A stretch of 64,000 bases of DNA from positions 4,154,001 through 4,218,000 of the forward strand of contig NZ_JADWYI010000001.1 of the NCBI RefSeq assembly GCF_016904885.1. Reading direction: 5' to 3'. Source of the DNA: Archangium primigenium. Lineage in GTDB: Bacteria; Myxococcota; Myxococcia; Myxococcales; Myxococcaceae. The number at the start of each line of letters is the position of its first letter. Position 1 is the stretch's first letter. A program made the position numbers and the translations under genes. The notes under the pieces were generated by a model, which saw nothing but the letters and a program-made list of their open reading frames with translations, searched no databases and was not told where the DNA came from. Shown here one piece after another: positions 16,992 through 28,867 of the stretch.

Positions 16992-18140
16992 CTACTCCAG
17001 GCCGAGCGCCCGGGCCCGGGGAACATGCCGCGCCAGGGCGGCCACGACGCGCTCCACGTCCTCGGGGGTCGTCGAGGTGCCCAGGGAGAAGCGCAGCGTG
17101 GCGCTGGCCTGGGCCGGGGTGAGCCCCATCGCCCTGAGGACGTGCGAGGGCGACAGCGTTCCCGACGCACAGGCCGCGCCCGAGGAGACGCAGATGCCCT
17201 CCAGGTCCAGGGCGATGAGCAGCGCCTCGCCGTCCGCGCCAGGGAAGGTCAGGTTGCTCGTGTTGGGCACCCGGGGCACCGCCTCGCCGTTGATGAACAC
17301 GTCCGCGAAGCGGGCGCGGACCTCGTGCTCGAACGTGTCCCGGAGGTGCCGCAGGCGCTCGGCGTTCGCGGGCCGCTCCGCGTGGGCGAGTTCGAGGGCC
17401 AGGGCGAAGGCCTCGGCGTAGGGGATGTTCTGCGTGCCGCCGCGCAGTCCGGCTTCCTGGTGTCCGGGCGTCAGCGCGTGGAGCTCCACGCCCGTGCGCA
17501 CCACCAGCACGGCCGCGCCCGGCGGCCCGCCGAACTTGTGCGCCGACAGCGCGAGCAGGTCCGCGTCCACCTCGTGCAGGGTCATGGGCAGCTTGCCCGC
17601 GGCCTGTACCGCGTCCGTGTGGAAGAGGATGCCCCGGCGCCGGCACTCCCGCGACAGCGCCTCCACGGGCTGCACCACACCCGTCTCGTTGTTCGCCCAC
17701 ATGAGCGAGCACAGCAGGGTGTCGGGCGTCAGCGCCTCGAGCAGGGCCTCCAGCGGCACCTGGCCCGTGGAGGCTGGTGGGATTCGCACCACGTCCGCGC
17801 CCAGCGCCTCGAGCTGCGCGAGCGCGCCGAGCACCGCCGGGTGCTCGAGGGTGGAGCTCACCACGCGCCGCTTGCCGGGGGACCGCCGCCCAAACCAGGC
17901 GCCCTTGAGCGCCAGGGCATCCGCCTCCGAGCCCGAGCCCACGAAGCAGACCTCCTTCGGCGCGCAGCCGAGCACCCGGGCCACGCGTGCCCTCGCGCCA
18001 TCCAAGCGCGCCCGGGCCTCGCGTCCGCCGCGGTGCACGCTGGAGGCGTTGCCGTGGCCGCCCTCGGTGAAGGCCCGCGCGAGCAGGTGGGCCACCTCGG
18101 GCCGCACCGGCGTGGCCGCGTTGTGATCCCAGTAGATCAC
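16992..18140 (-). CDS. cysteine desulfurase (NifS/IscS family)
   Basis: 382 residues from a GTG at 18140 (VIYWDHNAATPVRPE). PLP-enzyme fold type I: the PLP lysine sits in ALSAHKFGGPPG and the catalytic Cys loop is SSGAACASG. NETGVVQPV and the HTDAVQAAGK substrate motif are also present. It takes sulfur from cysteine as a persulfide for Fe-S clusters or tRNA thiolation. No iscU, iscA or mnmA is adjacent. The GTG overlaps the stop of the upstream DHH gene (GTGA). Confidence 0.92.
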   Translation of the reverse strand: MIYWDHNAATPVRPEVAHLLARAFTEGGHGNASSVHRGGREARARLDGARARVARVLGCAPKEVCFVGSGSEADALALKGAWFGRRSPGKRRVVSSTLEHPAVLGALAQLEALGADVVRIPPASTGQVPLEALLEALTPDTLLCSLMWANNETGVVQPVEALSRECRRRGILFHTDAVQAAGKLPMTLHEVDADLLALSAHKFGGPPGAAVLVVRTGVELHALTPGHQEAGLRGGTQNIPYAEAFALALELAHAERPANAERLRHLRDTFEHEVRARFADVFINGEAVPRVPNTSNLTFPGADGEALLIALDLEGICVSSGAACASGTLSPSHVLRAMGLTPAQASATLRFSLGTSTTPEDVERVVAALARHVPRARALGLE

Positions 18141-19264
18141 GGCGAGGGGGCGGACAGGAGCGCCACGGGCCGCTCGTCCGCGACGCCAAAGGCCTCCAGG
18201 AAGCGCCGCACGAGCTCGCGCTTGACCGCCTTGCGCTGATGGGCCCGGCCCGACAGGGGAATGCGCGCGCCCGCCATGCTGCCGTGGCCGCCCGCCGAGC
18301 CCCCGTAGTCCTCGCAGATCTCCCGGATGAGCCGCCCCGCGTTCATGCGCCGGTCCTTCACGCGCAACGACAGGAAGAGCTGGTTGCGGAAGCTCGCGTA
18401 CGCGAGCGACCACTTCATCCCCTCGAGGAACATCAGCCGCTCGGCCACCTCGGCCACCATGTCCGGGGAGTAGACCTCCTCCAGATCCGTGACGATGGCC
18501 GTGTCCCCGTACACCTTCGCCCGCTCGAAGGCCGTGTGGTACATCTGGAAGTAGCGCGCGGGCAGTTCCGGGTGCTCGATCTGTCCGAGCAGTTGCTTGT
18601 CCGCCCGGGGAAAGAGCCACAGGTACGTGTCGATGTCCGTGGGCGTCGTCTCCCGGCCCAGGTCGCGCGTGTCCGCCTTCACCCCGTAGAAGAGGGCGGT
18701 GGCCACCTCGGCGGAGGGCTCCAGACGCGCGGCGCGCAGGTACTGCGCCAGCATCGTCGAGGTGGCGCCATAGTCCCCGCCCACGTCCGCGAACGGCGCC
18801 TCGAGGCTCTCGTCGCGCAGGGGGTGGTGGTCGATGACGATGTCCACCTCGCGGCGCAGGCGCGGGGGCACGGCGTGGTTGCCCGTGGGCGGCTGCGTGT
18901 CCACGAGCGCCAGCAGATCGTACGCGTCCAGATCCAGCTGGGCGATGGGCACCACGGGCAGCCGCAACACCTTGACGAAGGCGATGTTCTCCGCGCGGCC
19001 GATGAGCCCGCTGTAGCCCACCTTCGTCTCCTCCACGCCCGCGCGCTCGCGCAGCAGCTGGGCCAGGGCGACCCCCGCGGCGATCGAGTCGGGGTCTGGA
19101 TTGTCGTGGGTGAGCACGAGGGCCTTCTTGCGGCCCTTGGCGACCTGGATCAGCCGCTCCAGCTTGGCGCGGGCTGGCAGGGTCGCGAGGCGCGGTGACG
19201 GAGGCTCCGCGCTCTCACCGCCTCCGGCAAGCTTGCGGCTGTTGGCTGTGGGGGTGGCAGGCAT
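18137..19264 (-). CDS. DHH/DHHA1 phosphoesterase (NrnA-like)
   Basis: 375 residues. An N-terminal tail of ~30 residues, then the DHH domain: LVLTHDNPDPDSIA, VDTQPPTG and VIDHHPLR (DHH motif), and the C-terminal DHHA1 domain with EDYGGSAGGHGSMAGA. Relatives degrade nano-RNAs, pAp or cyclic dinucleotides using Mn2+. Which substrate is used here cannot be read from sequence. It is translationally coupled to the cysteine desulfurase gene downstream. Confidence 0.88.
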   Translation of the reverse strand: MPATPTANSRKLAGGGESAEPPSPRLATLPARAKLERLIQVAKGRKKALVLTHDNPDPDSIAAGVALAQLLRERAGVEETKVGYSGLIGRAENIAFVKVLRLPVVPIAQLDLDAYDLLALVDTQPPTGNHAVPPRLRREVDIVIDHHPLRDESLEAPFADVGGDYGATSTMLAQYLRAARLEPSAEVATALFYGVKADTRDLGRETTPTDIDTYLWLFPRADKQLLGQIEHPELPARYFQMYHTAFERAKVYGDTAIVTDLEEVYSPDMVAEVAERLMFLEGMKWSLAYASFRNQLFLSLRVKDRRMNAGRLIREICEDYGGSAGGHGSMAGARIPLSGRAHQRKAVKRELVRRFLEAFGVADERPVALLSAPSP

Positions 19265-19418: not shown

Positions 19419-20255
19419 CTAGTTGATGGCCTTGTACCGGCGGGCCATGTCCTTGAAATACTTGATGCCGTTCTCGAGCGAGTTCTCGATGGCATCCATG
19501 AGCAGGCCGCGGAAGATGCCCTCCGCGCCGCGCAGCGACTCATAATAGCGCTGCCGATCGATGGAGTGGATGATGGCGGGCATGTAGCCGTTGCGCAGCA
19601 GCACCAGGTTGGTGAGCATCCGGCCGACCTTCCCGCTGTTCTCCGTGAACGGGAAGATCTGCATGAACTTGTGCTGGGCCACCGCCGCCTGCTTGATGGG
19701 GTGGAACTCGCGGAACTCGGCGCTGCCCGTGTAGTCCACGTACTTCTCCAGCGCGGGCTGGATCTTCGCCGGCTGGGAGATCTCGTGGAAGTAGGTGCGG
19801 TGCAGGGGCATGTCCTTGCGGTAGCCGCTGCGCTCGCGCTCCTTGGCCAGTTCCTTCTCCGTGCGCTCGCGCCGCTCGATGTTGGCGCGCGTGGTGAGCG
19901 CCTCGGGCGTGTTGCCACACACCAGGTCGTGGATGCGCTTGATGGTGGTGAGCGTGATCTGCGCCTGCTTCTTGCCCGTGGCCGCCGCTTCCTCGCGCAG
20001 GTAGTCGCACGCGGCCTTGTGGTTGCGCACCTCGAGCACCACCGGGATCATCGCCGGGTCCATGCTGGCCCGCTCGGGGAAGAGCGCCGAGAGCAGCTCC
20101 TGCTGCGTGTACACCGTCCCCTCGAGGGCCGCGTCATGGTAGATCCACGACATCTCGAAGCGCTCGAGGAAGTCGCGACCCTTGTCCTTGTAGATGCCAA
20201 GGTAGTCGCGCAGCGTTTCGTTCTTCTCGTCAATCTCTTGGTAGCGTTCCTTCAC
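19419..20255 (-). CDS. Fic-fold protein with degenerate active-site motif
   Basis: 278 residues starting at a GTG. The Fic core is clear: FHPIKQAAVAQHKFMQI, then FPFTENSGKVGR (201-212), then LTNLVLLRNGYMPAIIHSID and RYYESL. Compared with the canonical HPFx(D/E)GNGRxxR, the catalytic His is Phe201, GN is NS, and the first Arg is Lys209. An N-terminal DAALEG (41-46) resembles the inhibitory (S/T)xxxE(G/N) helix. It is therefore unlikely to transfer AMP by the normal mechanism. A consensus promoter (20340-20368) precedes it, so it is probably its own transcript. Confidence 0.8.
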   Translation of the reverse strand: MKERYQEIDEKNETLRDYLGIYKDKGRDFLERFEMSWIYHDAALEGTVYTQQELLSALFPERASMDPAMIPVVLEVRNHKAACDYLREEAAATGKKQAQITLTTIKRIHDLVCGNTPEALTTRANIERRERTEKELAKERERSGYRKDMPLHRTYFHEISQPAKIQPALEKYVDYTGSAEFREFHPIKQAAVAQHKFMQIFPFTENSGKVGRMLTNLVLLRNGYMPAIIHSIDRQRYYESLRGAEGIFRGLLMDAIENSLENGIKYFKDMARRYKAIN

Positions 20256-20339: not shown

Positions 20340-20368
20340 ATTGTAGAAATTCCAGGTGTTTAGGACAA
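20340..20368 (-). promoter_or_regulatory. sigma70-type promoter of the Fic-fold gene
   Basis: Minus strand: -35 TTGTCC (20368-20363), 17-base spacer, -10 TACAAT (20345-20340), with an AT-rich stretch just upstream. The predicted start near 20333 leaves a ~78-base leader before the GTG at 20255. Confidence 0.7.
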
Positions 20369-20386: not shown

Positions 20387-21721
20387 TCACAGGCTGACGA
20401 GGAAGACCTCGCACGCCTGGTCCAGGAGGTCCTTGGAAAGCGCGGGCGGGATCTGCCGGTAGCGGGCGGCATCCCGGATGAGCTGCACCAGGTCGCGCGG
20501 GTGGCAGGCACGCAGCTGCATGTTGCGCGGCCGGTAGTAGTGCTCGAACAGGTAGGTGACCGCCTGCTCCACGTAGGGGATGCCCGCCGCCTCGCACACG
20601 TTGGCGAAGATGTCCCGGTAGACCTCTTCGTCGGGGTTGGTGACCTCGATCTTGTACTTGATGCGCCGCAGGAAGGCCTCGTCCACCAGCTCCTTGGGGT
20701 CCAGGTTGGTGGAGAAGACGAGCAGCTGATCGAAGGGGATCTCGAACTTCTTGCCCGTGTGCAGGGTGAGGAAGTCCACCCGCTTCTCCAGGGGGACGAT
20801 CCACCGGTTGAGCAGATCCGTGGGGTGCACCTTCTGACGGCCGAAGTCGTCGATGAGGAGCATGCCGCCGTTGGCCTTCACCTGGAAGGGCGCCTCGTAG
20901 AAGCGGGCCGTGGGCGAGTAGATGAGATCCAGCGTCTCGAGCGTCAGCTCGCCGCCCACCACCACCGCGGGGCGCCGGCACAACTGCCAGCGGTGATCCA
21001 TCTCGAAGGTCTGCCGGCGGCCCGCCGCGTCGCGCTCGCTCTCCAGCCGCACGGGGACATGGTTGAGCGCGTCGAAGACCTTGATGATCTGGTTGTCGAT
21101 CTCCAGACAGTGGGGGATGAACACCTCGCCGCCGAACATGCGGCTGATGGCCTCGGCGAGGCTCGTCTTGCCGTTGCCCGGGGGCCCGTAGAGAAAGAGC
21201 GAGCGGCCCGAGTTCACCGCGGGCCCCAGCTTGTCCATCAGGTCCGCGGACACGGTGAGGTGCTTGAGCCCCAGCACCAGGTCCTCGCGGCTGATGACCG
21301 GGCTCTCCTCGGTCTGCGCGGTGATGAGGGCGTTGTACTGCTCGATGGGGATGGGGGCGGGGCCCACGTAGGTGCTGCGCTCGATGGCGCCGCGCGCGTA
21401 CTCGCGGCCGCGCTCGGAGAGCACGAAGTCCACCGAGGCGCGGCCAAAGCCCTTGCCGCCCCGGAGGTCCACCAGCTTCTCCGAGGTGAGGAACTCCACC
21501 ACGGCCTCGATGACGCCAGGCCACGGCAGGCGCAGCTCCTGGGCGATGTCCATGCCGGTCGCCGTGCCCTGGTAGTACAGGTAGCGCAGGGCGATGTCCG
21601 ACAACAGGCCCATCTTCAGGCCCGTCTCCTCGAGCGACTTCGGCTCCGCCGGAGCGATGTCGAGGATGGCGGGGTTTTCGAGACCGAAGGGATTGGCGGG
21701 GGCGGCGTACTCGGGGCGCAT
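20387..21721 (-). CDS. AAA-family ATPase with N-terminal winged-helix-like region
   Basis: 444 residues. Residues 35-120 look like a winged-helix domain (LSDIALRYLYYQGTATGMDI..FLTSEKLVDLRGG). The ATPase core has Walker A GPPGNGKTS (about 175), Walker B LLIDDFG, a sensor 1 FSTNLDP and an arginine-finger-like FLRRIKYKI. The C-terminal lid ends with HPRDLVQLIRDAARY. No membrane helix. Its remodelling target is unknown. Between it and the Fic-fold gene is only that gene's promoter. Confidence 0.82.
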   Translation of the reverse strand: MRPEYAAPANPFGLENPAILDIAPAEPKSLEETGLKMGLLSDIALRYLYYQGTATGMDIAQELRLPWPGVIEAVVEFLTSEKLVDLRGGKGFGRASVDFVLSERGREYARGAIERSTYVGPAPIPIEQYNALITAQTEESPVISREDLVLGLKHLTVSADLMDKLGPAVNSGRSLFLYGPPGNGKTSLAEAISRMFGGEVFIPHCLEIDNQIIKVFDALNHVPVRLESERDAAGRRQTFEMDHRWQLCRRPAVVVGGELTLETLDLIYSPTARFYEAPFQVKANGGMLLIDDFGRQKVHPTDLLNRWIVPLEKRVDFLTLHTGKKFEIPFDQLLVFSTNLDPKELVDEAFLRRIKYKIEVTNPDEEVYRDIFANVCEAAGIPYVEQAVTYLFEHYYRPRNMQLRACHPRDLVQLIRDAARYRQIPPALSKDLLDQACEVFLVSL

Positions 21722-24241: not shown

Positions 24242-27200
24242 CTACTTGTCCAGCTCGTCCACGAGCGAGGTCCAGTCGGCCTCGTCCGAGGCGACGGCCG
24301 TGGGGATGGGCATCATCACGGTGCGCTCGGAGACCTCGTCATCCTCGCCGAGCGCCGGGGGCGGCGCGGGCGGGGCGACGCGCTTGGGCGCGGCGGCGGC
24401 GGCGGCCGGCTTGGCGGCGGGACGGGGCGCGGCCCGGGGCATGGCGGCGGCGGGCGCCACGGTGGGCACCTGCTGGGTGGAGAACAGATCCTCCTCCGCC
24501 AGCAGACCGCCCGGCGCGGGCGTCTTGGCGGCCACGGCATTGGGCGCGGCGGGGGCCTTGGTCTTGAAGCGCGCCAGCTCCAGCTCGGCCACCTTGAGCG
24601 CCTTGCTCTTCTCCTGCACGGACTGCTGCAGGCGGGCGATCTCCTGCGCCTTGAGGGCCTCGCGGCGCTCGAGCTCCGCCTTCTGACGGGCGTTGAGGTC
24701 CTCGAGCTCCTTCTGCTGCCGGGCCTCCAGCTCCTTGCGCTCCTTGAGGGTGGCGGCCGACTTGGCGACGGCCTCGTTGGCCTTGGCCTCGGCGGCGGTG
24801 GCGCGGGCGGTGAGCTCCTTCTCCACGCGGGCCTTGGTGCTCGTGGCGCTCTCCACCGCGAGCTCCAGCTCCTGGACCTTCTTGGCCCGGAGGGCGGTCT
24901 GCCCCTGGGCCTCCTTGAGCCGGGCGTCGGCCTCGTCGGCGCGGGTCTGCAGCTCCTGGGTGAGCTGGGCGGAGCGGGCCTCGGAACGGGCCAGCTTCGT
25001 GGTGAGCTCTTCCTGGGCGCGCTTGGTGTCGGCGCGCTCCTGGGCCTGGGTCTGCTGCAGGGCCTGGGCCTGGGCCTGGGCCTGGGCGAGCTGCGCGCTC
25101 ACGGCCTCGCGGTCCGACTGGAGCTTGGCCTGCTGAGCCCCCGCGGCACGCAGCTGCTCGTCGCGCGCGGCGACCTGCTTGCGCGCGGCGTCCAGCTCCG
25201 CGTTGAGCGCGGCGAGCTGCCGGGCGGCGTCCTCCTGGGCGCGCTTGGCCTGCTCGGTCTCGGCGTGGCGGCGCTCCTCGAGCTGCTTGATCTGCTCGGT
25301 GCGGGCGGACACCTCGCCGCGGAAGCGCTCCTTGTCCTGGGTCGCCACGCTGAGCTTCTGCAGCGTGTCGGACAGGTCCTGGTTCTTCTGCTCGGCGTCC
25401 TTCTCCAACATCTCGATGCGGCGCTGGGACTCGGCCGTGAGCGTGTTGAAGCGCTCCTGGAGGGTGTGGTGCTCCTCCTCGGAGTGGGCGAGCTTGGAGC
25501 GCAGCTCGGTGACCTCGGCGACGCTGCTGCCGAGCTCCTGCTTGACGAGGAAGAGCTGCTCCTCGAGCTCCTGGCCCTGGTCGCGCGCCTGGGCGAGCTG
25601 GGTCTCCAGCTCCACGCGGGTGGCGGTGGTCTGCTGCTGGGTCTGCGCGTGCGCGGCCTGCTCGCCGGTGAGCGCCTCGCGCGTGGCGGCCAGGTCGCCC
25701 TCGGTCTCCGCCAGCTTGTTGCGCGTCTGGCCGAGCTGCTCGGACAGCTCCTCCTCCATGGCCGTCTTGAGCGCCTCGGTCTCCTGCAACACGCCGTTGA
25801 CGCGGACGATCTCCGCCTGGGCCGTTTGCAGCTCGGCGTCACGCTCGGCGAGCGCCTGGGCGGTGGCCGACAGGGTGCCCTGCGTCTCGGCGAGGGTGCC
25901 CTGCGTCTCGGTGAGCGTCTGGGTGGTGGCGTCCAGCTCGCCGCGAGTCGTCGCCAGCGTCTCCTCGGTGGAGGCCAGCTTCGTCTCGGTGGCCGAGAGC
26001 TTCTCCTCCGTGGCCGAGAGGGTGCCCTGCGTCTCGGCGAGGGTGGCCTGGGTCTCGGAGAGGGTCTGGCTGGTGGCGTCCAGCTCGCCGCGCGTGGTGG
26101 CCAGCGTCTCCTCGGTGGAAGCCAGCTTCGTCTCGGTGGCCGAGAGCGTGCCCTGCGTCTCGGCGAGGGTGGCCTGGGTCTCGGAGAGGGTCTGGCTGGT
26201 GGCGTCCAGCTCGCCGCGAGTCGTCGCCAGCGTCTCCTCGGTGGAGGCCAGCTTCGTCTCGGTGGCCGCCAGCGTGCCCTGGGTCTCGGAGAGCGTGGTC
26301 TGGGTCTCGGAGAGCGTCTGGCTGGTGGCCTCGAGCTCGCCGCGCGTGGTGGCCAGCGTCTCCTCGGTGGAGGCCAGCTTCGTCTCGGTGGCCGAGAGCG
26401 TGCCCTGCGTCTCGCTGAGGGTGGTCTGGGTCTCGGTGAGGGTCTGGCTGGTGGCGTCCAGCTCGCCGCGGGTCGTCGCCAGCGTCTCCTCGGTGGAGGC
26501 CAGCTTCACCTCGGTGGCCGAGAGCTTCTCCTCGGTGGAGGCGAGGGTGGCCTGGGTCTCGGAGAGGGTCTGGCTGGTGGCGTCCAGCTCGCCGCGGGTC
26601 GTCGCCAGCGTCTCCTCGGTGGAGGCCAGCTTGTCCTGCGTGGCGGAGAGGGTGCCCTGCGTCTCGGCGAGGGTGGCCTGGGTCTCGGCGAGGGTCTGGC
26701 TGGTGGCGTCCAGCTCGCCGCGCGTGGTGGCCAGCGTCTCCTCGGTGGAGGCCAGCTTCGTCTCGGTGGCCGAGAGCGTGCCCTGCGTCTCGCTGAGGGT
26801 GGTCTGGGTCTCGGTGAGGGTCTGGCTGGTGGCCTCGAGCTCGCCGCGCGTGGTGGCCAGCGTCTCCTCGGTGGAGGCCAGCTTCGTCTCGGTGGCCGAG
26901 AGCTTCTCCTCGGTGGAGGCGAGGGTGGCCTGGGTCTCGGAGAGGGTCTGGCTGGTGGCGTCCAGCTCGCCGCGGGTCGTCGCCAGCGTCTCCTCGGTGG
27001 AGGCCAGCTTCGTCTCGGTGTCGGCGAGCGTCTTGCTCGTGGCCTCCAGCTCACCCGTGAGGGTGGAGATGCGCTCGTCGCGCGCGGCGACGGTCTCCTG
27101 GAGCCCCTGGATCTGCCCGTTGAGGTCGGCCTCGGAGGCGTTCTTGGCGGCCTCGAGGTCGTTGCGCGACTGGGTCATCGCCTCGAGCTCGGCGGTGAGC

Positions 27201-28867
27201 TCGGCCTCGCGGTCGGCCAGGTGCGTCTTGGCGGCCTCGACCTCGCCTTCCAGCTCGCCGATGCGCTCCATCTGCTGCTGGATGTTGGCGTTGAGCTCCG
27301 CCTCGTGGCTCTCGTTGCGGGCGATGCTGTCCTGCAGCTCGCGGTCGAGCGTGGCGATGCGCGCGTCCCGGTCCTCGAGCCGCTGCGTGAGGTCGCTCTC
27401 CTGGGCGTCCTTGTCCACCTGGAGCTGATCGCGCTCGCCCGTGGCGCGGGCGAGGTCCGACTCCAGGCCGGCGATCTGCTCGTTGAGGCGGGCCTCGAGC
27501 GCGGCGCGCTCGGCGTTGATCCGCTGGATCTCCGCGTCCGCGCGGGCGCCATGGTCCTCGGCGGCGCCGGCGCGGGCCTCGAGGGTGCGCACGGTGGTGT
27601 CGCGCTCCTGCTCGAGCTGGGCCAGGCGCTCCTGGAGCGCCTGGACCTCGCCCGTCAGCTCGGAGTAGCGCTGGTCGCGCTCGCCGATGGTGCGGGCCAG
27701 CTCGGCGTCCAGCGTCTCGATGTTCTGCTGGCGCCGCGACAGCTCGCCCTCGTGGGCCTGGACGGTCTCGGTGAGCCGCTGCTCCTTGACCTCGAACTCG
27801 AGCGTGACGATGCCCAGGTGCTTCTCGAGCTTGTCGTACTCGTCGCGGACGTAGGTGATCTCCGCGGCCCGGCGCGACAGCTCCTCCTCGCGGTTGGAGG
27901 CCTCGCGGCGAAGGACGTTGATGTCCTTCTCCTTGGAGGCCACCACCTCGATGAGATCCTTCTCGGCGGAGAACTTCTGCAGGAGCAGGTCGTCCACGGT
28001 GGCGCCGTGCTCGCGCTCCTTCTGGAGCGTGGCCTGCTGGGCCTCGTTGAAGCGGCGCAGCAGGTCATCCACCTGCATCTTGAGGCCCTGCAGCTCCACG
28101 TCCTTGTCGTGGAGGCGGTCCTCGACGGACAAGAGCTCGCGCTCGCGGACGTTCCACACCTCGGAGAGGCGGGCGATCTGCGACTCGCGGCCCTTGAGCT
28201 CGTCGCGCAGGAGCTGCACCTTGCCCTCGGGCGTGCCCATCAGGTCGCGCCGGGGCGGCGGGCGCTTGAGCTGACGCGACTCGGCGAGCAGCTCCGCCTT
28301 GCGGTCCGCGATGGACTGGAAGGCGCGCTCGAGGAAGGTGCGATCCTCCTCGGTGATGGCGCTGCGGCGCTCGCGCTTGGGCAGCCGGGGCGGGGCGCCG
28401 GCCGGGGTGGGCGGGCCCCGCAGGGGCGGGGGGATGCTCGGCGGGCCGTCACGCGGCGCGGCCTGCTGGGCGCTGGCGGACTCGTCCCCGGAGGGGAGGA
28501 TCTCCATGCTCATCGCCGCGAGCTCGCCCATGTCGAAGGGCACCAGCAGGTAGCCGTCCGCGGCACCCGGGCTCTGGCGGTGCTGCTCGATGCCCTCGCG
28601 GCTCATCTCCTCGGACACGAGGAGGACGTGGAGGTTGTGGCCCCACTTTCCGCGCTTGATCTGCCCACAGATGCTCAGACCGGACTGATCACTGCCCTTC
28701 AGCTCGGCGTTGATGACGAGCAGATCCGGTCGGCGCTTCTCGACCTCACGCTGGGCATCCGCGGCACTGGAGGCGATGGCCGTTTGATAACCCGCGCTCT
28801 TGAGCACGGTGGCCATGCTCAGGGCGAAGTCATTCTTGCTCTCGACGATAAGGACGCGACGCTCCAT
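24242..28867 (-). CDS. aglZ: AglZ-like pseudo-receiver/coiled-coil protein
   Basis: 1541 residues. Residues 1-120 are a receiver-like domain, but the phospho-acceptor Asp is Asn (PDLLVINAEL) and the usual Lys before the last loop is Val (YLLVPFD), so it cannot signal by the normal route. After a Pro-rich linker (to ~175) there is a ~1200-residue coiled coil, with a 42-residue heptad array in its middle. The C-terminus is Ala/Lys/Pro-rich and ends SERTVMMPIPTAV...WTSLVDELDK. M. xanthus AglZ (gliding motility) has this layout; FrzS is built alike but is much shorter. The cell presumably uses it as a filament or scaffold at motility sites. Confidence 0.75.
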   Translation of the reverse strand: MERRVLIVESKNDFALSMATVLKSAGYQTAIASSAADAQREVEKRRPDLLVINAELKGSDQSGLSICGQIKRGKWGHNLHVLLVSEEMSREGIEQHRQSPGAADGYLLVPFDMGELAAMSMEILPSGDESASAQQAAPRDGPPSIPPPLRGPPTPAGAPPRLPKRERRSAITEEDRTFLERAFQSIADRKAELLAESRQLKRPPPRRDLMGTPEGKVQLLRDELKGRESQIARLSEVWNVRERELLSVEDRLHDKDVELQGLKMQVDDLLRRFNEAQQATLQKEREHGATVDDLLLQKFSAEKDLIEVVASKEKDINVLRREASNREEELSRRAAEITYVRDEYDKLEKHLGIVTLEFEVKEQRLTETVQAHEGELSRRQQNIETLDAELARTIGERDQRYSELTGEVQALQERLAQLEQERDTTVRTLEARAGAAEDHGARADAEIQRINAERAALEARLNEQIAGLESDLARATGERDQLQVDKDAQESDLTQRLEDRDARIATLDRELQDSIARNESHEAELNANIQQQMERIGELEGEVEAAKTHLADREAELTAELEAMTQSRNDLEAAKNASEADLNGQIQGLQETVAARDERISTLTGELEATSKTLADTETKLASTEETLATTRGELDATSQTLSETQATLASTEEKLSATETKLASTEETLATTRGELEATSQTLTETQTTLSETQGTLSATETKLASTEETLATTRGELDATSQTLAETQATLAETQGTLSATQDKLASTEETLATTRGELDATSQTLSETQATLASTEEKLSATEVKLASTEETLATTRGELDATSQTLTETQTTLSETQGTLSATETKLASTEETLATTRGELEATSQTLSETQTTLSETQGTLAATETKLASTEETLATTRGELDATSQTLSETQATLAETQGTLSATETKLASTEETLATTRGELDATSQTLSETQATLAETQGTLSATEEKLSATETKLASTEETLATTRGELDATTQTLTETQGTLAETQGTLSATAQALAERDAELQTAQAEIVRVNGVLQETEALKTAMEEELSEQLGQTRNKLAETEGDLAATREALTGEQAAHAQTQQQTTATRVELETQLAQARDQGQELEEQLFLVKQELGSSVAEVTELRSKLAHSEEEHHTLQERFNTLTAESQRRIEMLEKDAEQKNQDLSDTLQKLSVATQDKERFRGEVSARTEQIKQLEERRHAETEQAKRAQEDAARQLAALNAELDAARKQVAARDEQLRAAGAQQAKLQSDREAVSAQLAQAQAQAQALQQTQAQERADTKRAQEELTTKLARSEARSAQLTQELQTRADEADARLKEAQGQTALRAKKVQELELAVESATSTKARVEKELTARATAAEAKANEAVAKSAATLKERKELEARQQKELEDLNARQKAELERREALKAQEIARLQQSVQEKSKALKVAELELARFKTKAPAAPNAVAAKTPAPGGLLAEEDLFSTQQVPTVAPAAAMPRAAPRPAAKPAAAAAAPKRVAPPAPPPALGEDDEVSERTVMMPIPTAVASDEADWTSLVDELDK
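25866..27036 (-). repeat. 126-bp tandem repeats encoding 42-residue heptad units
   Basis: Nine copies of the segment LASTEETLATTRGEL can be counted in the translated protein. Most units are 126 bp (six heptads), each heptad opening with Leu; some copies carry an extra heptad (147 bp spacing at about 25958-26104). Copies are nearly the same in DNA as well as protein, so expansion by recombination is recent or continuing. It lies inside the AglZ-like gene. Confidence 0.9.

Follow-up and report, generated by a model that had tools for sequence, protein, structure and literature searches.

The usual view of Fic proteins is of mobile toxins, effectors or stress regulators. A gene in the 9.49 Mb genome of Archangium primigenium raises the question of what a protein with this fold does once its catalytic histidine has been replaced. 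The gene lies in a 64,000-nt stretch of contig NZ_JADWYI010000001.1 (GCF_016904885.1), hereafter the window. The features on which the question turns are the following:

19419..20255, minus strand: gene of a 278-aa Fic-fold protein lacking the catalytic His, with a GTG start and its stop at 19419
19620..19655, minus strand: degenerate Fic loop FPFTENSGKVGR, codons 201-212
20340..20368, minus strand: sigma-70-type promoter TTGTCC-17-TACAAT, with 9 of 12 consensus bases, conserved in relatives

A Fic-fold gene with a degenerate motif

Family membership rests on both profile score and fold. The 278-aa product matches the Pfam Fic profile PF02661 (E 1.6e-11; score 45.3 bits, curated cut-off 24), and its AlphaFold model (pLDDT 89.3, pTM 0.88; lower in the flap, at about 76-81) matches FICD with a Z score of 29.0 and an rmsd of 2.4 over 243 residues, in line with an earlier note on this DNA that had described the fold as well kept. 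The catalytic core reads F201-P-F-T-E-N-S-G-K209-V-G-R212, as against HPFx(D/E)GNGRxxR in ordinary Fics, and the three replacements listed in that note for the open reading frame—His to Phe, Gly-Asn to Asn-Ser and Arg to Lys—are all borne out by the sequence.

The note had also proposed that a consensus promoter drives the gene, and such a promoter is indeed found, its end lying 85 bases upstream of the start codon. TTGTCC-17-TACAAT is the single site of its kind between 18000 and 22500, where shuffling leads one to expect 0.4. The promoter block GGAATTTCTA(C/G)AATC is conserved throughout the orthologue family, and two distant orthologues (L138 and L141) have a TTGACA-17-TACAAT of their own at the equivalent place. 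Likewise, the start VKERYQ and the GGAG upstream of it are conserved among relatives. A profile search of the A. primigenium genome matches this gene alone and finds no other Fic, and other near-complete relatives likewise give exactly one hit.

Loss of the catalytic residues throughout the family

For the genome counts, orthologues were defined as matches with E below 1e-50, our own cut on the tables of a search with a profile built from 48 orthologues. The motif was compared over 206 orthologous loci encoding 146 distinct proteins. Across these loci, position 201 is F in 195 and Y in 11, and never His. The Asn position, 207, is occupied by S in 190, T in 12, N in three and A in one, so that S or T stands for Asn in 202 of 206 and the motif of AMPylating Fics, HPFx(D/E)GN(G/K)R, is not present. 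P202 and G208 are unchanged in all 206 loci, and the ordinary Fics encoded in the same genomes read HPFxDGNGRxxR. Because an F or Y occupies the His position in every locus, a chance origin of the motif change is excluded.

The earlier note had asked whether F201 and K209 are fixed. An aromatic residue is always found at position 201, if not strictly phenylalanine (F in 135 and Y in 11 of the 146 distinct proteins); position 209 is not fixed, being K in 107 and R in 24, with M, S, F, T and Q also occurring. Accordingly, K or R is found at 209 in 131 of 146 proteins, and the acid E/D205 is retained in 128 of 146. In the deep branches, both the Mg-binding acid (205) and the phosphate-binding Arg or base (209) are gone, and 14 of 83 orthologue representatives have none of His, Asp/Glu, Asn and Arg left. 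Judged from these alignments, canonical AMPylation by the protein is very unlikely. The note had named orthologues that regain HPF...GNGR as the outcome that would speak against its reading; none of the 206 loci across the phylum does. This rules out a pseudo-enzyme specific to one strain and supports the suggestion of binding without AMPylation or of another chemistry. A nucleotide may be bound, yet a different ligand seems as likely as ATP, since the phosphate ligands of the Fic motif are largely replaced.

Two further genes with altered motifs were seen. One is a short Fic-like ORF (L216, G159:C12:105450-106070) with QPFSEMNAR for HPFxDGNGR, which is His-less and falls outside the clade by score. 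The other (L060, G031:C10:104739-105008) is an ordinary-looking 527-aa Fic reading HPFAVGSGRMGR, in which His is kept and Asn has become Ser.

Distribution and descent

With the cut at 1e-50, an orthologue is present in 141 of 147 genomes of the class and 176 of 195 of the phylum; counting any match to the 48-orthologue profile, these figures rise to 143 of 147 and 184 of 195. Named carriers include Archangium, Hyalangium, Myxococcus xanthus, Corallococcus and Anaeromyxobacter, and even a genome of 1.3 Mb, 99% complete, retains the gene. The few near-complete genomes without an orthologue are G015 and the Corallococcus-like G098 within the class, and, outside it, those of families f18 and f19, one genome of f25 and a very small one of f22. 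The G098 assembly consists of 20 contigs and is 99% complete; its missing orthologue reflects either loss or an assembly gap.

When 24 ordinary Fics of the same genomes were included in the tree, the 51 orthologues came out as a single group (SH-aLRT 98). When 13 diagnostic columns were masked and the comparison comprised 26 ordinary Fics, plasmid and phage proteins included, the orthologue clade was again recovered (98/98, 96% of bootstrap trees). Within the clade, the grouping of families follows the taxonomy, which is what vertical descent would produce, and dN/dS between close orthologue pairs (0.04-0.20) indicates purifying selection, which, together with the conserved promoter, bears out the earlier view that the gene is not decaying. 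The protein is thus a vertically inherited, nearly universal core protein of the phylum. A phage or plasmid origin was considered and ruled out: no viral contig encoding a relative was found, and the matches on plasmids and phages are distant Fics, with about 30% identity or less among the rows listed.

Some of these plasmid genes have neighbours of their own. The Fic gene L264 235-954 (Planococcus) adjoins a gene with a nucleotidyltransferase domain, and L269 298-1032 (Metabacillus) adjoins a DUF86 gene; HEPN-MNT toxin-antitoxin pairs are made up of these two halves. On a Methylobacter plasmid, the genes for the S and R subunits of a type I restriction system have a Fic gene (L267 286-1047) between them.

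A new set of fixed residues

Three segments other than the Fic loop carry residues fixed in the family:

20112..20150, minus strand: inhibitory-helix equivalent SWIYHDAALEGTV, codons 36-48; H40 and D/E41 fixed, E/D45 and G46 kept
19761..19820, minus strand: flap equivalent RKDMPLHRTYFHEISQPAKI, codons 146-165; R146, P150, H152, Y155 and H157 fixed
19530..19559, minus strand: pocket helix DRQRYYESLR, codons 233-242; R234 and Y237 fixed, Q235 and R/K242 family-specific

All 146 distinct proteins have H40, G46, R146, Y155, H157, P202 and G208, while H152, R212, R234 and Y237 each occur in 145; position 45 is E in 129 and D in 17. With few exceptions, the columns of highest invariance are His, Arg, Tyr, Gly or Pro. 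The set fixed in the family comprises H40, D/E41, R146, P150, H152, Y155, H157, Q235 and R/K242, and a position-by-position comparison of 83 orthologue representatives with 26 ordinary Fics separates what is new in it from what is general. Residue 41 is D/E in 83 of 83 orthologues and Ser/Thr in 26 of 26 ordinary Fics. H152 (82 of 83), Y155 (83 of 83) and P150 (81 representatives) are likewise found in none of the 26, and R/K242 (80 of 82) occupies a position that is mostly acidic in ordinary Fics. H40 and H157 do occur in some of the latter. The general Fic pocket is kept, namely R146, R212, Y237, F203 and G208 plus the inhibitory Glu and Gly (45 and 46), and with E/D45 and R212 the inhibitory Glu-Arg pair is retained.

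Mean column entropy was compared on the same basis, with the caveat that the ordinary Fics are few (26) and a broader sample than the orthologue clade, which raises their entropy everywhere, so that the absolute values should not be over-read: orthologues and ordinary Fics score 0.91 and 1.77 in the inhibitory helix, 1.16 and 2.40 in the flap, 1.06 and 2.17 in residues 230-242, and 1.35 and 0.99 in the Fic loop. The remaining segments differ little. Because the Fic loop differs in the opposite direction to the other segments, the alignment indicates a shift of constraint inside the fold: the loop is looser, and the inhibitory helix, the flap and the last pocket helix are about twice as conserved. 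Beyond the earlier note, then, are the phylum-wide core clade, the lack of another Fic in the genome and this new invariant set in the inhibitory helix and flap.

Predicted structure and comparison with known systems

In solved Fics, the inhibitory helix, flap and Fic loop surround one pocket (PMC3667792, PMC4342408, PMC2686095). The nucleotide of FICD is bordered by the Fic loop helix, the post helix and the flap loop 311-324, and Arg 374 is the partner of Glu 234 in its inhibitory helix (PMC4342408, PMC12974487). By backward extension of the alignment without gaps, H157 is placed near FICD 319 in the flap loop; opposite N407, an adenosine-contact residue of FICD, there is an alignment gap. 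In the Helicobacter pylori Fic, R50, R107 and Y132 are part of the potential active site (PMC2686095), and in our own mapping by alignment R146, R212 and Y237 are their equivalents. By analogy with these structures, the new fixed residues would cluster in one pocket. The predicted fold of L141, an orthologue from a distant class without any of the four catalytic residues, also matches FICD (Z 29.0).

Our search of the literature on Fic in Myxococcus or Myxococcota, which took in few subscription papers, found no study of this protein, and a survey of Fic/Doc motifs distinguishes five groups, none of which has FPFxxxSGK (PMC4454073). Among the families listed by the fold search, human FICD/HYPE and Caenorhabditis elegans FIC-1 share the whole Fic fold with the protein, including the inhibitory helix and a loop-like flap (Z 29.0 and 26.6), as well as the inhibitory Glu, its Arg partner and the pocket Arg and Tyr. 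Unlike these two, the protein has no catalytic His or Asn, carries Asp/Glu for the Ser/Thr of the inhibitory motif, lacks TPR and membrane parts, and is only 24% identical. The protein thereby departs from the class II motif (S/T)xxxE(G/N): its position and its E(G) persist, with Asp/Glu for Ser/Thr in all orthologues. FICD-type deAMPylation does not fit either, the Glu being kept and the His absent: in EfFIC, deAMPylation needs both the inhibitory Glu and the catalytic His (PMC6408439). The Bacteroides Fic BT_2513 (PDB 3cuc) is similar in size and fold (Z 25.1 over 237 residues) at 20% identity.

Other systems resemble the protein in the loss or dispensability of catalytic residues. AvrB has a Fido fold without the Fic histidine, as here, and is a distant match (Z 11.7, 7-8% identity); this proven His-less Fido protein catalyses another chemistry, being a rhamnosyltransferase (PMC10866546) that uses UDP- or dTDP-rhamnose and no metal, and differs in its inserted upper-lobe domain, its active-site residues and its role as a secreted plant effector. 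Campylobacter fetus Fic2 has reported activity despite a degenerate motif (PMC5651007) but still carries its histidine, and the phenotype measured for BepC survives mutation of His or Asn (PMC7842913), although the native protein has the histidine; both are effectors or toxins of particular lineages, unlike a phylum-wide core gene. In Doc clade D2, with the motif Qx[F/Y]x[D/E][G/V]NKR, the catalytic His is replaced as it is here, but Asn and Arg are kept, and the 45 sequences in the survey are small Doc-type proteins (PMC4454073). The orthologues depart from the Doc and Fic-Doc D2 motif [H/Q]xFx(D/E)xNKR with F/Y in first place and S/T for Asn. Nor does the gene resemble a Fic-type toxin-antitoxin module, with its conserved small partner and patchy, mobile occurrence, having no fixed partner gene and a phylum-wide distribution.

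A proposed retooled pocket and its rivals

The protein very probably does a core job other than AMPylation. The best explanation of it, in which we place slightly more belief than doubt, is that the pocket has been retooled for a different ligand, with ligand and activity both putative. A FICD-like Fic with an N-terminal inhibitory helix would be the ancestor of this vertically inherited protein, and AMP transfer would have been given up, catalytic His and Asn being lost in the whole clade. The fold, the pocket residues R146, R212 and Y237 and the pair E/D45-R212 are retained, and the inhibitory helix, the flap and the last pocket helix carry a new fixed polar set. Because these elements probably line one pocket, as in solved Fics, that pocket would have been rebuilt for another ligand—probably a small molecule of anionic character, a derivative of a nucleotide, or a peptide that docks in extended form on the flap. 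The protein might act by specific binding of this ligand or through another reaction in which flap His/Tyr and helix acids replace the Fic histidine, and would require neither a second Fic nor a fixed neighbour gene. New functions have been named before as the probable outcome for Fics whose motifs are degenerate (PMC3667792). A bolder version, to which we give somewhat less than even credence, holds that the rebuilt site of three His, a Tyr and two acids in inhibitory helix and flap is a new enzyme or sensor in the core physiology of the phylum, with a substrate and a reaction new to Fido proteins.

Part of the conservation pattern could come from a conserved docking surface, and the main rival, unlikely though deserving of attention, is a pseudoenzyme scaffold whose fold docks a partner protein via the flap, with a ligand-free pocket and fixed residues that shape the altered flap and helix. 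Flaps of solved Fics dock extended peptides (PMC3667792), the Bartonella effector BepC, which binds a partner protein of the host, still works after mutation of its catalytic His or Asn (PMC7842913), and an inhibitory Glu-Arg pair kept where there is no AMP transfer to inhibit fits a structural role. However, the retooled pocket is favoured over such a scaffold because the invariant columns are the pocket-type polar residues, Gly and Pro named above rather than hydrophobic surface, and because known flap docking is main-chain based and sequence-independent (PMC3667792), leaving invariant H152, Y155 and H157 unexplained. A further rival, which we consider improbable, is a nucleotidyl transferase or hydrolase acting on proteins, in which H157 or H152 of the flap replaces the Fic His, and K209 and E205 replace Arg and Asp. 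The wide retention of E/D205 and K/R209 speaks for it, as do the retained organisers of the Fic pocket (R146, R212 and Y237; PMC2686095) and the example of AvrB, which needs no metal (PMC10866546) and for which flap residues were once proposed as the His substitute (PMC2686095). Yet the fixed set is still present in the 14 representatives that have lost all four catalytic residues, and because it persists there, the old phosphate site must be dispensable for the conserved function. Moreover, the catalytic His of EfFIC, needed for deAMPylation, is described as the base of AMPylation (PMC6408439), and the counterpart of the adenosine-contact residue N407 falls in a gap.

An antitoxin or inhibitor acting in trans on an active Fic of the same cell would make sense of the retained inhibitory-helix Glu and has a precedent in C. 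fetus, where a degenerate Fic is controlled by another Fic (PMC5651007), but the gene has its own promoter and no fixed partner, and is the one Fic of its genome, as in other near-complete relatives. This idea is highly improbable in general and ruled out for A. primigenium, which has no second Fic. As for a decaying gene or a sequencing artefact, the degenerate motif is the sole point in its favour, and its probability is practically negligible: the reading frame is open across the sampled species, the substitutions are fixed phylum-wide, and dN/dS and distribution, down to the 1.3 Mb genome, rule out decay.

With a retooled pocket as the preferred reading, a Fic protein became a near-universal vertical gene of a phylum after losing the residues of the family-defining reaction, with new pocket residues fixed. 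The case is a clean test of the re-use of an enzyme fold and provides a short list of residues to mutate in the tractable carriers M. xanthus and Anaeromyxobacter.

Gene neighbourhood

Two genes flank the locus:

20387..21721, minus strand: AAA ATPase gene just upstream of the fic-like gene; context, not an obligate part
18137..19264, minus strand: DHH/DHHA1 phosphoesterase gene downstream; a neighbour conserved across much of the class

Much of the class shares the arrangement ilvE - AAA ATPase - fic - DHH phosphoesterase - nifS. Parts of it alone persist in the deep branches, where fic neighbours patatin, ilvE, nfo-like, DHH, nifS, ribA or TPR genes, a changing housekeeping context that rules out reading a function from the neighbours, which are best read as a stable chromosomal setting rather than a pathway. 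The AAA ATPase is matched in just 21 of 45 sampled genomes and absent from 24, which rules out an obligate partnership; where a close copy exists, it is next to fic in 13 of 18. This ATPase (20387-21721, minus strand) also has a second paralogue group of 44-48% identity in this and related genomes, for example at G000:C1:5112238-5113476. Elsewhere in the window, a gene at 24242-28867 (minus strand) encodes a protein of 1541 aa whose receiver-like N-terminus is accompanied by a long coiled coil of near-identical repeats, which correspond to about 8.4 copies of a 126-base unit with 88% match at 25968-27031.
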